Below are positions 57,346 through 63,932 of a stretch of 64,000 bases of DNA, piece by piece (the stretch's first letter is position 1; each line of letters opens with the position of its first letter). Source of the DNA: Pirellulales bacterium. Its GTDB lineage: Bacteria; Planctomycetota; Planctomycetia; Pirellulales; Lacipirellulaceae. The translations under genes and the position numbers were made by a program. Below the pieces are notes generated by a model that saw only the letters and a list, made by a program, of their open reading frames with translations, was not told the DNA's origin and made no database searches. Location of the stretch: NCBI GenBank assembly GCA_022448345.1, contig JAKVCB010000005.1:29328-93327 (forward strand). The letters run 5' to 3'.

Positions 57346-58344
57346 ATGACCGAGCAAACCGCTCCTTCCCTAGAAACTCTGCTTGATCGGCGTCCTGAAG
57401 AGGCCAATAGCTGGGTGCTAGGCAATAATCCACAAGTCGGGCGTATTGCCCGTCACGCCGAGCGTGCTGCGCAAGTGCAATGTACCGTACTTGTAACCGG
57501 TGAAACGGGAACAGGTAAGGAAATTTGGGCACGTTTGCTGCATGAGCTCAGTCCAAGACGCAACAAACCGTTTGTGCCGGTTAACTGTGCTGCGTTGACG
57601 GCAACCCTGGCCGAAAGCCAGTTGTTTGGTCACGAGAAGGGCGCATTCACCGGTGCTGCTGGGCGGAGTTTAGGTGTGTTCCGTGCCGCCCAGGGTGGTG
57701 TGGTGTTTCTGGACGAAGTCGGCGAAATGCCAATAGAATTGCAGCCCAAACTGCTTCGCGCGTTGCAGGAATCGGAAGTAACACCGGTTGGTTCTTCGCA
57801 TCCGGAGCAGTTCGATGTGATGGTGATTGCCGCGACAAACCGTAAGTTGGACGTGGAGGTGGACAAAGGCCGCTTCCGTGAAGATCTTTACTATCGGCTC
57901 AACATGGTTGAACTGGAGATTCCGGCGCTCCGAAATCGGATCGATGACATTCCCTTGTTTGTCGAGTTCTTTTCGCGCCGATTTGCGGCCAAGTACAGTC
58001 GTGACATGTGGTGGCCCAGTGAGGAGTTGCTGGGACAGTTTTCCGCTTATCCCTGGCCTGGCAACGTACGCCAACTGGGACACGTAATTGAGCAGGCCTA
58101 TGTTTTGGATTGTGAACCACGACTACCCAATAAAGTAGCGGAACGGACCGAGGCAACGCTGCCTTACACCGATCTTAGCCAACTAAGGTCCGCCGCAGTC
58201 CGCCAGGCAATGCGTTCCACACAGGGTCACAAGGGTCGTGCCGCAAAGTTGCTGGGCGTGCATGCCAATACGATGACCCGCTTGTTGGCCCAGATTCGTG
58301 AAGAGCAAAAGAGTGAAGAAGCGGATCAAGCTGAGGGTCTCTAA
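57346..58344 (+). CDS. Stand-alone sigma-54-dependent activator (AAA+ plus Fis-type HTH, no receiver domain)
   Basis: VTGETGTGKEIWARLLHELS (Walker A); FGHEKGAFTGAAGRS (GAFTGA loop); GGVVFLDEVGEMP; WPGNVRQL; C-terminal GHKGRAAKLLGVHANTMTRLLAQI. Confidence 0.93.
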   Translation: MTEQTAPSLETLLDRRPEEANSWVLGNNPQVGRIARHAERAAQVQCTVLVTGETGTGKEIWARLLHELSPRRNKPFVPVNCAALTATLAESQLFGHEKGAFTGAAGRSLGVFRAAQGGVVFLDEVGEMPIELQPKLLRALQESEVTPVGSSHPEQFDVMVIAATNRKLDVEVDKGRFREDLYYRLNMVELEIPALRNRIDDIPLFVEFFSRRFAAKYSRDMWWPSEELLGQFSAYPWPGNVRQLGHVIEQAYVLDCEPRLPNKVAERTEATLPYTDLSQLRSAAVRQAMRSTQGHKGRAAKLLGVHANTMTRLLAQIREEQKSEEADQAEGL

Positions 58345-59120
58345 GGGCCCTTGTTGGGGTTGCCTCAAGTAACTCTGATCTCTCGTCGCCGCCAGCCATC
58401 TCTACAAGCGTTGATTCATCCTGGGCTGGAAAACATTGGAATCCCCGGTATGGTCCTGGTGCGAAAATTACCAACGATGCAGACGGTTTTGCGATAGGTC
58501 CTCTTGGCACGGCCGATGAAGCCCTGCTCGCGGTGCAACACGCGCGGCGTCGGCTAAAATTGACGGCCAATGAAACCAGGGCACGACTCGGCCCCATACT
58601 GGTCGGCACCGTACTGGACAGGCCGTTGGGCTTTGTGGGATATGCCATCGAGCCACGGTGACTCACCTGAGACGGGACGTGCATTTGGTGCTGATCCGGG
58701 CGAAGAAGATGTTGCCCGGACTTGTTGGGACGTCAGCGGTCAGCGGTGGTGATTGCTGCATTGTGAAGCCATCGTACAACAGACCAACCAGAAACTTGCC
58801 ATCAGGTCAAACTATTCCCGTTTCAGTCCAGTGAGAAACTCCTCCCCATCTGCGGATCGTTACGCTTGCGGTTGGCTTCGCAGGTCGTTGTGTGCAACGC
58901 ACAAGTTGCTCAGTTTGGGGCACCTCACGACATCCAGGTGACTATGCTGTCTTGGAGGTGGGCCTGATTCGACGAAGTACGAAAGGTTGCAACTTTCCGT
59001 GTGCAACCGCATACACCATTGTCCCAATCAGGTTCGAAAAAAATGCCCGCCACGCGTTGCCTCCATCGAACGGTTGATTGCCCCGGTAGCCGTCGAACAA
59101 AGCCACGTTTAGCAACGGTC

Positions 59121-59537
59121 TTATGCCGAAGGACGCTGCAGTTTTTGAACCGCTTTGCGGAGTTCCTCACTGGTCCAGCCACGATTTTCGGCCTCGCGCA
59201 GCATGTTTCGCTGTTGATCATGAGGAAGTCGGGCAACGACTGCGTGAGCTGACCAGGAAAGCGAAGTCGATCGGTTTCCCAACGGCACCCTTCGAGCCAC
59301 AGAAGCGTAACGGCTGAGTTGCTCGGTAGATACGATCCCTTCGCACATCTGTGAAAAGGATTCCCCAAAATGGTCTTCGCCGTGGTTTAGCAGATCGCCA
59401 ATCCACCATGGCCCGGCCCGCTGGCACCACAAGGCAAATTGCAGCGGCCCCTTCCATTGATCGAGTTGGGGTCGGCCGGAAAATTTCACACCCACCGACG
59501 TGAACTGAAACGGTCCGAGCGAGATAGTCGGAGGCAT
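59121..59537 (-). CDS. Hypothetical protein
   Basis: MPPTISLGPFQFTSVGVKFSGRPQLDQWKGPLQFALWCQRAGPWWIGDLLNHGEDHFGESFSQM...LPHDQQRNMLREAENRGWTSEELRKAVQKL; coherent composition and hydrophilic C-terminus. Confidence 0.6.
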   Translation of the reverse strand: MPPTISLGPFQFTSVGVKFSGRPQLDQWKGPLQFALWCQRAGPWWIGDLLNHGEDHFGESFSQMCEGIVSTEQLSRYASVARRVPLGNRSTSLSWSAHAVVARLPHDQQRNMLREAENRGWTSEELRKAVQKLQRPSA

Positions 59538-59829
59538 GGCGGACGATGAAATCAGGAAAAATGAACGACCAGACGATTACCAGATTCTAGAGGGATGACC
59601 AGAAGCAATGGAAGTCTATTCAGGAGGACTTTTGCTTAATCTGAACCAAAGCCCTTTTTTGGAGGTGCGGCAGGCAATTGTGGTTTTCAGCTAAACCTGC
59701 CTTTGATCTTCTTGCGCATACCTGCCTGGCGATGGAAACCCTCTGGCCCGGTTTAGTCCCTATTTTGGCTATATCCCCAAAAAGCAATGTGGGTTGGTAT
59801 TCCAGAAATCTTAGGCTGGCAAGTCTCTT

Positions 59830-60456
59830 TTAGAGATTTGCCAGCAACATTCCCGGAGTCGGTTTGTTGTGGTGGGTCAACTTCTGGAAGTCGACCGAGT
59901 GTGACTTCCATAACAACAAAATTGGTTTGTTATCGTCTTGGGGGGGATCGTAGGTGTCCAAGACTTTGAACCTCGAGACTCCACGACCTGATCGAAGCAA
60001 TATTTTGTAGTCCGTGTCACCCGATGTCATCCGGACGTTCGCTTCATGATCTTTTCCGGCCGTCGTGAAAAGAGGTTCCCCAGCCCGGGAGGCGATCTCG
60101 GCATGGATGGATGTTTTGCTGGGGAAGTCCACCTCGGGAAAAGCACTCGGTAATGTTGCAGCGACAACTTTAGGGCGGTTGGCCATCTCATAGACCTGGA
60201 GAAGGTTTTGCACGCGTCCTGGCTTTTTCGACACTTGGCTTGCCTCGAGGCGATTTGTCCCAGGCCGGCTGGAGTCTTGTTTGAGCCCATTGACCGGCTT
60301 GTTCGCACAGGGCTTACTGGGGCCGAAAGTGGCTACCCATTTGTCGTTGTTTGTAGGCATTTCAAGCGCAAAGAAAAACGACTCGCCTTGAAGGGTTCCA
60401 CTTACCAATAGGACCGCCGTTACAAACCCTGCTGTAATGTTGAATCCGCGTTGCAT
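59830..60456 (-). CDS. Exported hypothetical protein downstream of a sigma-54-type promoter
   Basis: MQRGFNITAGFVTAVLLVSGTLQGESFFFALEM leader, 208 aa; start chosen at the methionine preceding the hydrophobic leader. Confidence 0.6.
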   Translation of the reverse strand: MQRGFNITAGFVTAVLLVSGTLQGESFFFALEMPTNNDKWVATFGPSKPCANKPVNGLKQDSSRPGTNRLEASQVSKKPGRVQNLLQVYEMANRPKVVAATLPSAFPEVDFPSKTSIHAEIASRAGEPLFTTAGKDHEANVRMTSGDTDYKILLRSGRGVSRFKVLDTYDPPQDDNKPILLLWKSHSVDFQKLTHHNKPTPGMLLANL

Positions 60457-60576
60457 CGAATTTTCCCCCGCTTGGTTTTGGACTGCTGTGGTTGATCGGC
60501 TTTTTGCCATCGTTTGCCTGGTCGCACTGTTGGTGCGGACTGGCGATTGGTTTCTTCTATTTGCAATCTTTGTGTC

Positions 60577-60592
60577 GCAATCTTTGTGCCAA
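60577..60592 (-). promoter_or_regulatory. Sigma-54 (-24/-12) promoter, reverse strand
   Basis: Reverse strand TTGGCACAAAGATTGC: TGGCAC-N5-TTGC with GG-N10-GC spacing. Confidence 0.7.
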
Positions 60593-60894
60593 TTGTAGGG
60601 GCCCAGCTCTCGATGGATGCATAAACCGTTATATAGACTTGGTTTATGTAAACTCTAATTGCCAGCTCCACTTACAGAGTCAGATTTGCGGTGGGTCTGA
60701 GACTTTGGCTTCTCAGCCCTAAGTGCTTTCAATAGGTTTGTGGGCGCGACCCTTGAAGGGGTCAACATAAAACCATGCAACCTGTTTTTATCAAAGACAT
60801 TACAACGATAGATGGTTTGAACACCAGTGTGTGAGATAGAGATAATATGAGCTACTTCATATATTTATATGACAACAGAGAGTTTATCCAGGCG

Positions 60895-60911
60895 GTCACA
60901 TTCCTTGTGAC
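60895..60911. promoter_or_regulatory. Dyad gtcaca-ttcct-tgtgac, candidate activator binding site
   Basis: Perfect 6-bp arms in AT-rich DNA between the divergent sigma-54-type promoters. Confidence 0.35.
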
Positions 60912-61102
60912 AATTCATTAAGACAGTGAAAAGACACCATAAGATGTTGTTACATAACAGTTTACAAAATAAAAAATGATTGGGAGCTCACTGGATTGGT
61001 GACTGGGGCCATGGTGCCAGGCCTCTGCTTGAAATCTCAGGAAAGTTCATAACTACCTTTATGAAAACATCTTAGGTCGATTATAAAAAATACTTACACG
61101 TT

Positions 61103-61118
61103 TGGCACGGGAGTCGCA
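61103..61118 (+). promoter_or_regulatory. Near-consensus sigma-54 (-24/-12) promoter, forward strand
   Basis: TGGCACGGGAGTCGCA: TGGCACG-N4-TCGC (one mismatch to TTGC), GG-N10-GC spacing kept. Confidence 0.55.
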
Positions 61119-61232: not shown

Positions 61233-61415
61233 ATGATGAGTCACAACCAGCGTTACCAGGCAGCGGAGCTTGAGTATGGCGGAGATGCGTTTCACCGAGA
61301 GGAACGCATCGTACCCAGTAGGACACGTCGGGCACCGGCAGGTCGTCGACGGAACAAAAGTCCCCAATCGTTTAACGGCATGCACCGGCGACGCAAACGC
61401 AAGATGAGCTGGTAG
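61233..61415 (+). CDS. Small basic protein A
   Basis: MMSHNQRYQAAELEYGGDAFHREERIVPSRTRRAPAGRRRNKSPQSFNGMHRRRKRKMSW; preceded by ttggaggaattg SD-like sequence. Confidence 0.62.
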   Translation: MMSHNQRYQAAELEYGGDAFHREERIVPSRTRRAPAGRRRNKSPQSFNGMHRRRKRKMSW

Positions 61416-61797
61416 ATCGCTGGGAGTCGCCAAATTCGTGCTGTAGTTCTGCAGACGTGCGGCGACAAGTCAAGGCGGACTTCGGTTTGCGTACAAACCT
61501 GTGCTGTGAATGGCAGGGTGTGGAAGATAACCAGGTGAAGTCGAGTTGGTGTTTTTCAGGATGCGTGTCGCGGCGAGGGTCTGCCCGAAGTGTGTAGGCA
61601 GATGTCGAGATAGACATAAACAACCAGGTTATGCGTACCCGGTTAATGACAAAACAGTAGAAGATCCAATAACGATCTCCTGCAATGCAATTAAAGAGCT
61701 TTGACTTAGATGCGGAGTGCAATGCTGTGTAAGTGTTGGGCGGTCAACGGCATCGACAAAGTTATATCGGTTTCAACATAGAGCGAGTTATCACACG

Positions 61798-62298
61798 ATG
61801 AACGAACATGAAACAACGTTATCAGCCATGGCAAATGTTGCGGGAACACGCCAGGTGGTTTCAAGAAAACCCGCACCTCCGACGGTGTACCAATGCATGG
61901 TGGTGTCCCCGAGCGAGGAGCGAGGAAAGTTTTTTCAGGATGCGGCTGTTGCACAGGGATGGGAGACGATCACGGTTTCCGATGTGGATACCGCAGCTCA
62001 AAAGGCGGTGAAGAATCGTATCGGACTTGCTGTGGTCGATCTTGAAGGAGTGGACAGTTCCAGTCAGGTACCTTACCGAGAGCTCGTCCAGGAGATGATC
62101 GACAATGCAGATGGAATTCCGTTGTTGGTCGTGTGTGGGCCAGAAGACGATCCCACGGGGGAGATTTGGTCGCGCCAGCTCGGTGTATGGATGTACCTGC
62201 CAGGTGTCGATGACCAAAGTGATGTGGCCATGTTATGCGGCGAAGCAAGGAATGTCGTTGAGAAACTTAAAGGCCAACCCGTGTCGAAAGAACGATAG
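61798..62298 (+). CDS. Response-regulator receiver-like protein
   Basis: PPTVYQCMVVSPSEERGKFFQDAAVAQGWETITVSDVDTAAQKAVKNRIGLAVVDLEGVDSSSQVPYRELVQEMIDNADGIPLLVVCGPEDD; receiver-like alternating strands/helices with VVDLEG at the phospho-acceptor region. Confidence 0.6.
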   Translation: MNEHETTLSAMANVAGTRQVVSRKPAPPTVYQCMVVSPSEERGKFFQDAAVAQGWETITVSDVDTAAQKAVKNRIGLAVVDLEGVDSSSQVPYRELVQEMIDNADGIPLLVVCGPEDDPTGEIWSRQLGVWMYLPGVDDQSDVAMLCGEARNVVEKLKGQPVSKER

Positions 62299-62341
62299 AG
62301 TTCACAACGAGTTGGGTGCGGTTACGAAAGCTAAAAAAACG

Positions 62342-62476
62342 ATGGACAAAAAGTCGTCGTACTACGGTTACTACAAAGACGGTTCTACGGAGATCTGTTC
62401 GAAGTGTAGAAGGTTGAAAAAACCAGGGTTGTTTGTCACCGAACGGGTCAAAGTGTTGAAAGGGGGAATTCGATGA
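62342..62476 (+). CDS. 44-aa Cys-pair microprotein
   Basis: MDKKSSYYGYYKDGSTEICSKCRRLKKPGLFVTERVKVLKGGIR; stop overlaps next start (ATGA). Confidence 0.5.
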   Translation: MDKKSSYYGYYKDGSTEICSKCRRLKKPGLFVTERVKVLKGGIR

Positions 62477-62661
62477 GGAGTTCGAATTATCGGGATGAAT
62501 CCGACGGGGAATACATCTCTGATCAAAAGCAGCGAACAATAAAGTACAGCGTCAGTAGGAAGCCACATAGTCGTACAAGATCCAAAGTGAAACGCCCTTC
62601 AACCGACCAGGTTGCGAAACGTGGCATTCACCAGCGGCGCAACAAACCGATGGGTTGGTAA
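62473..62661 (+). CDS. Small basic protein B, related to A
   Basis: MRSSNYRDESDGEYISDQKQRTIKYSVSRKPHSRTRSKVKRPSTDQVAKRGIHQRRNKPMGW; shares G[MI]Hx(R)RxxxM[SG]W ending with protein A. Confidence 0.58.
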   Translation: MRSSNYRDESDGEYISDQKQRTIKYSVSRKPHSRTRSKVKRPSTDQVAKRGIHQRRNKPMGW

Positions 62662-63179: not shown

Positions 63180-63932
63180 ATGAACAGAATTTCTACCAAA
63201 AATACAATCGGGTTTATTACAGCGGCCTTTGCTTTTGGATTGGTAATGGCCAACTCGTCCGGAATCGTAATGGCTCAAGAGACGTTTAATTTGCAAGACC
63301 TCATCGACACGATGGGTAGTTTCGAAGTTGAAGACAAGCGATTTTCCAATTTTCAGTACAGCTGGACTGGAGATATGCCTCCGGCAAATAATGTTAATCT
63401 TGTGACTTTAATTGACAGTGGTGGAAATCCGGGTTTCAGAATGACGGGCTATTTTTCGGACACCGCTCTCACCACTGGTGGGACCACTGGTGGGTCGGAT
63501 GCCCTGCTGACTTACGAAGTGGATGTCACCAACCCGACAAGCAGAATCGTAGGTGCTTTTCTCGCAGGGAACCCAAATCTTCTGGGTGGAACGCAGGGGT
63601 CGATCAACGTATCGGAAACCTTTCTTCCACTTGGAGCTAGTGGAGAGTTCACAGGCGAAATTTTTGACGATACCCTTGCCGGGACTCAGTTAATAGACTC
63701 GGTCGACTTTGGGAGCGGTTACACGCATCTCTCTGTGCAGAAGGATATTGGTGCCATTGTGTTTGAAGGTAGCGGCACGATGTCCTTTGTGGACCAAACG
63801 TTTTCCCAAACCACAATTCCTGAGCCTAGCACGACACTGTTGTTGATTTTGGGACTTGCGATGTGTGGTGTGAGTCGACGGACCCTTGCTTCCTCGGACT
63901 ACGCTTCCCAGGCTGCTTTGATTTTTGGGTGA
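63180..63932 (+). CDS. PEP-CTERM protein
   Basis: Signal peptide (TIGFITAAFAFGLVMANSSGIVMAQE); terminal TIPEPSTTLLLILGLAMCGVSRRT. Confidence 0.88.
   Translation: MNRISTKNTIGFITAAFAFGLVMANSSGIVMAQETFNLQDLIDTMGSFEVEDKRFSNFQYSWTGDMPPANNVNLVTLIDSGGNPGFRMTGYFSDTALTTGGTTGGSDALLTYEVDVTNPTSRIVGAFLAGNPNLLGGTQGSINVSETFLPLGASGEFTGEIFDDTLAGTQLIDSVDFGSGYTHLSVQKDIGAIVFEGSGTMSFVDQTFSQTTIPEPSTTLLLILGLAMCGVSRRTLASSDYASQAALIFG

Follow-up and report, generated by a model that had tools for sequence, protein, structure and literature searches.

A receiver-less sigma-54 activator, a stand-alone pseudo-receiver and a family of small Arg/Trp peptides at a conserved planctomycete locus

Results

Organization of the locus

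The window, a 64,000-nucleotide stretch of contig JAKVCB010000005.1 (assembly GCA_022448345.1) from a Pirellulales bacterium, contains a plus-strand cluster of genes, putative regulatory sites and a gene for a secreted protein (Table 1). The initial annotation of this DNA had described two tiny basic proteins, here called A and B, on either side of a receiver-like protein, and all three are present where it placed them. In the window's family (named loci include Lacipirellula, Aeoliella and Bythopirellula) the usual gene order is sigma-54 activator, A, pseudo-receiver, B and PEP-CTERM protein. A same-strand peptide gene neighbours the pseudo-receiver in 74 of 76 non-redundant loci; those numbered L063-L102 were retrieved via peptide searches and are biased toward such neighbours, and those numbered L175-L226 were retrieved via the pseudo-receiver alone and likewise have the peptide association. 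The peptide copies number one to three at varying positions, and in many loci the peptide lies 3' of the pseudo-receiver, hence without an A-type gap.

A 44-aa ORF with a Cys pair (CSKC), located between the pseudo-receiver and B, had also been put forward as a member of the system. Searches of 40 related genomes returned no credible homologue (best E 0.06, with internal stop codons), so it is probably not part of the system, and its ATGA overlap with B, earlier read as translational coupling, is no evidence of conserved coupling.

Table 1. Features of the locus (positions in the window)
Feature	Position	Strand	Description
Receiver-less sigma-54 activator	57346-58344	+	AAA+ domain and Fis-type HTH
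Enhancer-like palindrome	60988-61002	+	TCACTGGATTGGTGA; consensus TCACC-N5-GGTGA; 115 bp 5' of -24
-24/-12 sigma-54-type promoter (putative)	61103-61118	+	TGGCACGGGAGTCGCA; TGGCAC-N5-TCGC in the window
Peptide A	61233-61415	+	59-60 aa; conservation, dN/dS; start more likely 61236
Non-coding gap, A to pseudo-receiver	61416-61797	+	Predicted RNA more folded than controls, family-wide
Stand-alone pseudo-receiver	61798-62298	+	166 aa; AlphaFold2 fold, Foldseek and profile matches; DD/T/K lost
44-aa CSKC ORF	62342-62476	+	Not conserved
Peptide B	62473-62661	+	62 aa; paralogue of A; homologues directly 3' of the pseudo-receiver in other genera
PEP-CTERM secreted protein	63180-63932	+	Pfam PEP-CTERM, NCBIfam TIGR02595

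A family of small proteins

Because relatives of A begin MSHxQxY and a GGAGGA ribosome site sits in front of the second ATG, the true start of A is probably that codon. A and B both terminate in G[IM]HxRRxxxxxW, and a profile derived largely from B-type sequences matches A of the same genome (E = 2.2e-4), which together indicate that the two are homologous rather than look-alikes, as their earlier description as paralogues implied; the SRTR segment also attributed to both is not a feature of the family. Searches with B as query return relatives in other genera, where an A-like ORF precedes and a B-like ORF follows the receiver-like gene. Pairwise dN/dS among the relatives, a measure that the initial annotation had named beforehand as the one able to refute these ORFs as proteins, is mostly 0.04-0.33; judged by these ratios, the peptides are genuine conserved proteins under purifying selection.

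Searched with a profile of A, 35 of 37 sampled genomes of the window's family yield a single copy each; elsewhere in the order the matches are weaker, and the total comes to 69 of 197 genomes. Two phylum-wide samples (294 and 392 genomes) yielded only single weak matches besides the window's own genome, and the relatives sought outside the order were only generic receivers or chance-level matches. This distribution suggests that the peptide family is limited to a single order of planctomycetes, most likely Pirellulales. The earlier impression that A and B match no known family holds for Pfam and NCBIfam models, none of which matches any of 37 family members; by this measure they belong to an undescribed small-protein family, without a name in the libraries searched.

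The residues G49, H51, R52, R53 and W60 are invariant among 37 aligned members, which were chosen by a pattern demanding the final Trp. In a scan free of that demand, no A copy of the window's family lacks the Trp; certain B copies do (e.g. GGMHQRGDKRVLR), as do a locus with a single peptide (L200) and the copies next to the activator gene in L085 and L089. These last are extra copies, directly 5' of the sigma-54 activator gene (L085:5612-5812 and L089:15861-16100), and end NGMHRRRNKRYG or NGIHRRRNKRYS. The N-terminal half of the peptides is likewise conserved. It is acidic at its start and the C-terminus is Arg-rich, with mean net charges of about -3 over the first 20 residues and +9 over the last 25. 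A low-confidence structure prediction for A (mean pLDDT 62) gives no stable fold except a possible N-terminal helix, and the chain is accordingly predicted to be disordered.

The pseudo-receiver

An AlphaFold2 model of the receiver-like protein has the (beta-alpha)5 receiver fold, with most core blocks above pLDDT 94, and both Foldseek and profile searches return receiver domains. Among 39 such sequences the phosphorylatable Asp is retained in 38, and the first DD residue and the T and K positions, as assigned by alignment to the standard receiver pattern, are replaced. The protein is therefore a pseudo-receiver by the definition of PMC12632262 and, as far as this alignment tells, is without the residues that ordinary phosphotransfer requires. 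No output domain is present, and the most conserved stretch of the protein is E-x-W-x-R-Q-x-G-x-W.

Activator, promoter and enhancer

The activator matches Pfam Sigma54_activat (5.8e-66) and HTH_8 (3.3e-6), and its translation holds GETGTGKE and GAFTGA motifs, the features of a bacterial enhancer-binding protein. It has no receiver match, and its AAA+ domain starts at residue 25, with only about 24 residues before it; lacking a same-chain receiver domain, it is not an NtrC-type response regulator. The PrsR model TIGR02915 scores it at 266.4 bits, below the cut-off of 502.6. Co-occurrence of the peptides with the activator gene, which had been suggested as a check, is seen in the window's family: an activator homologue lies 5' of A in 17 of 21 loci, not always adjacent. 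The stretch between the activator and the A promoter region (58345-60987, about 2.6 kb) is longer in the window than in most relatives, and contains a minus-strand ORF (59830-60510, 226 aa) without a match to Pfam or NCBIfam.

A -24/-12 element, mostly TGGCAC-N5-TCGC[AT], precedes A by 80 to 217 nt in all 21 family loci, a few with one base changed. It has the -24 GG and -12 GC at sigma-54 spacing; the base before the GC is C in the window's family, and TTGC or GTGC forms are common in the pseudo-receiver-first loci of the order. We regard it as the putative conserved sigma-54 promoter of the peptide/pseudo-receiver operon, and an RpoN gene is present in the window's genome.

The palindrome TCACC-N5-GGTGA lies about 105 or 115 bp 5' of the promoter, in two classes one helical turn apart, and is degenerate in a few family loci. 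The 66 kb upstream of the operons hold 50 exact copies, as against 4 in 736 kb from elsewhere in these loci; when up to one mismatch is allowed, the palindrome is present in 66 of 74 loci. The pattern was picked after viewing the family's own loci, but it recurs in other families of the order that had no part in its choice. Its position suggests that it would be bound by the adjacent activator.

PEP-CTERM proteins and a peptide fusion

The last gene of the cluster encodes a PEP-CTERM protein, recognized by Pfam (3.3e-5; 24.2 bits versus a cut-off of 20.7) and by TIGR02595 of NCBIfam (22 versus 16 bits). Most loci of the window's family have such a gene at the same place, 3' of the other genes, and in most B lies directly 5' of it. 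In some families (e.g. L088, L097 and L100) a simple pattern detected none near the operon; the detector is crude and missed the window's own gene, so these absences are soft.

One further family has the peptide in fused form: a secreted PEP-CTERM protein of about 400 aa starts with it and continues with a GSGRGAR-type linker, a hydrophobic signal-like segment, an FGE-sulfatase domain and the PEP-CTERM motif. The junction WTWGSGRGAR is conserved in about a dozen loci, which excludes a single assembly error. PEP-CTERM proteins with the fusion and the FGE-sulfatase domain occur in L083, L091, L102, L213, L216-L223 and L226; in the unfused relatives L195 and L198 the PEP-CTERM protein encoded 3' of the peptide gives no FGE match.

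The gap after peptide A

The RNA predicted from the gap between A and the pseudo-receiver has a mean folding z of -1.96, versus -0.39 and -0.73 for controls, and alignment z-scores are strong in 2 of 11 genus groups (-5.4 and -3.9). An Rfam search of the gap gave no match, no common 7-mers rose above shuffles, and across genera no common sequence or structure was found. The folded gap may simply be an attenuator hairpin. In L068 and L081 it contains a long G+C-rich hairpin in which both arms of the stem carry changes; attenuation or processing is a conceivable role.

Discussion

A possible split sigma-54 switch

Reading function from an anatomy drawn by comparative sequence, we hypothesize, as the interpretation with most support but with a confidence that stops short of calling it probable, that the locus is a self-contained split sigma-54 switch, one that produces a PEP-CTERM surface protein along with small accessory proteins of its own. 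The activator would bind TCACC-N5-GGTGA and loop onto the sigma-54 RNA polymerase; activator, enhancer and promoter would then drive an operon whose products are the pseudo-receiver, between one and three peptides and, in many cases, a surface protein. The pseudo-receiver would provide in trans the regulatory domain that the activator is missing (a split NtrC-like arrangement). The peptides would remain on the cytoplasmic side, where the polybasic, Trp-ended tail may hold an anionic surface (the operon's RNA or DNA, or inner-membrane lipid) and another part of the peptide may contact the pseudo-receiver or the export route. Pseudo-receiver and peptides would serve as dedicated accessory or feedback factors, and surface-protein output would be coupled to, or feed back on, its own regulator.

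This hypothesis draws on the domains of the activator, on RpoN, the promoter and an enhancer with two helical-turn spacing classes; on the near-constant peptide neighbours (74/76), the receiver fold with its lost active site and the purifying selection on the peptides; and on the PEP-CTERM neighbour, the peptide-PEP-CTERM fusion, the predicted disorder and the basic tail. Against it stand the families in which no PEP-CTERM gene was detected, and the activator that is not always adjacent. A more sweeping version, which we consider unlikely, would make it an order-wide module in which stand-alone pseudo-receiver and disordered Arg/Trp peptides act in trans on the receiver-less activator, the peptide having been fused to an exported protein in one lineage: a peptide-controlled descendant of a two-component system without phosphotransfer.

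Other roles for the peptides have to be weighed against the split switch. The initial suggestion of nucleic-acid binding by A and B, a guess, is compatible with their composition and with the structured gap after A. It can be extended to RNA-binding regulators whose disordered, Arg-rich, Trp-ended motif recognizes a structured RNA from their own operon and controls downstream read-through or translation. Lambdoid-phage N peptides have a disordered Arg-rich motif with a nearby Trp, and act on boxB; A and B would be analogous in their predicted disorder, their Arg-rich motif and the Trp close by, but their motif is C-terminal and the likeness is no sign of sequence homology. The Arg-rich C-terminus, the disorder and a gap more folded than controls, with its strong alignment z in two of eleven genus groups, keep this reading in play. 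We nevertheless doubt it, for the gap has neither a common sequence or structure across genera nor an Rfam match, its fold signal could be that of a simple attenuator hairpin, many loci with the peptide 3' of the pseudo-receiver have no such gap, and the motif is kept when fused to an exported protein.

That fusion favours a place for the peptide at the inner membrane near export, and the peptides might be export helpers: a polybasic tag, cytoplasmic or at the inner membrane, acting for the PEP-CTERM protein mostly in trans and, in one family, in cis before the signal peptide. Apart from the conserved junction, the place of B immediately before the PEP-CTERM gene in most family loci fits this role, and polybasic residues with Trp would suit a membrane surface. 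It seems to us no less questionable than RNA binding, as A lies far from the PEP-CTERM gene, some families have peptides but no detected PEP-CTERM neighbour, and the fusion partner, with its FGE domain, is unlike the unfused PEP-CTERM proteins. Far less credible is a leader-peptide role for A and B, in which the act of translation rather than the product would control the next gene through ribosome stalling at the conserved C-terminus. Conserved residues do continue as far as the stop codon, and A comes first among the ORFs, ahead of a structured gap; yet conservation extends to the N-terminal half, dN/dS is low across the entire ORF, the copies number one to three at various positions, and the motif is retained even within a 400-aa protein.

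Comparison with known systems

In the PrsK/PrsR/PrsT system of Proteobacteria, sigma-54 sites precede PEP-CTERM genes (Haft 2006, PMC1569441). The present locus likewise ties PEP-CTERM genes to a -24/-12 site, an upstream activator site and a Fis-type sigma-54 activator. Unlike PrsR, which has its own receiver domain and a membrane kinase as partner, the activator here has no receiver; a stand-alone pseudo-receiver and small peptides are present instead, and the conserved site precedes the peptide/pseudo-receiver operon.

The activators PspF and HrpRS lack a regulatory domain. PspF/PspA (PMC3128695) and HrpR-HrpS/HrpV (PMC4145663) exemplify sigma-54 activators governed in trans by a distinct protein; we infer comparable trans control here, but the candidate partner, a pseudo-receiver, is unrelated to PspA or HrpV. 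It shares with bacterial pseudo-receivers, or atypical response regulators (PMC12632262), a receiver fold without the active-site residues, and differs from others in having no output domain, in being restricted to one order and in its near-obligate peptide gene neighbour. As a 2025 review calls the on/off switching mechanisms of bacterial pseudo-receivers a mystery (PMC12632262), a pseudo-receiver with such a neighbour offers a concrete candidate partner for switching. For planctomycetes, the locus adds a small-protein family absent from the searched libraries and a nearly complete regulatory anatomy, from activator, enhancer and promoter to pseudo-receiver, peptides and surface protein. It represents a variation on sigma-54 control, a well-defined regulatory module that includes a new family of small proteins.

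Further observations

A wider regulon was sought with the -24/-12 element alone and this approach was abandoned: counts were close to the backward control, and inspection of eight loci brought no further clear operon to light. A composite pattern of UAS and -24 element recovered many A loci, and most of its other matches were coding-like as judged by eye. Genome-wide UAS counts exceeded the backward control, which was unmatched for codon use, in 6 of 6 genomes (from 9 vs 5 to 56 vs 4), and the site may have further targets. As to peptide copy number, L084 and L086 each have three peptide copies around a single pseudo-receiver gene.
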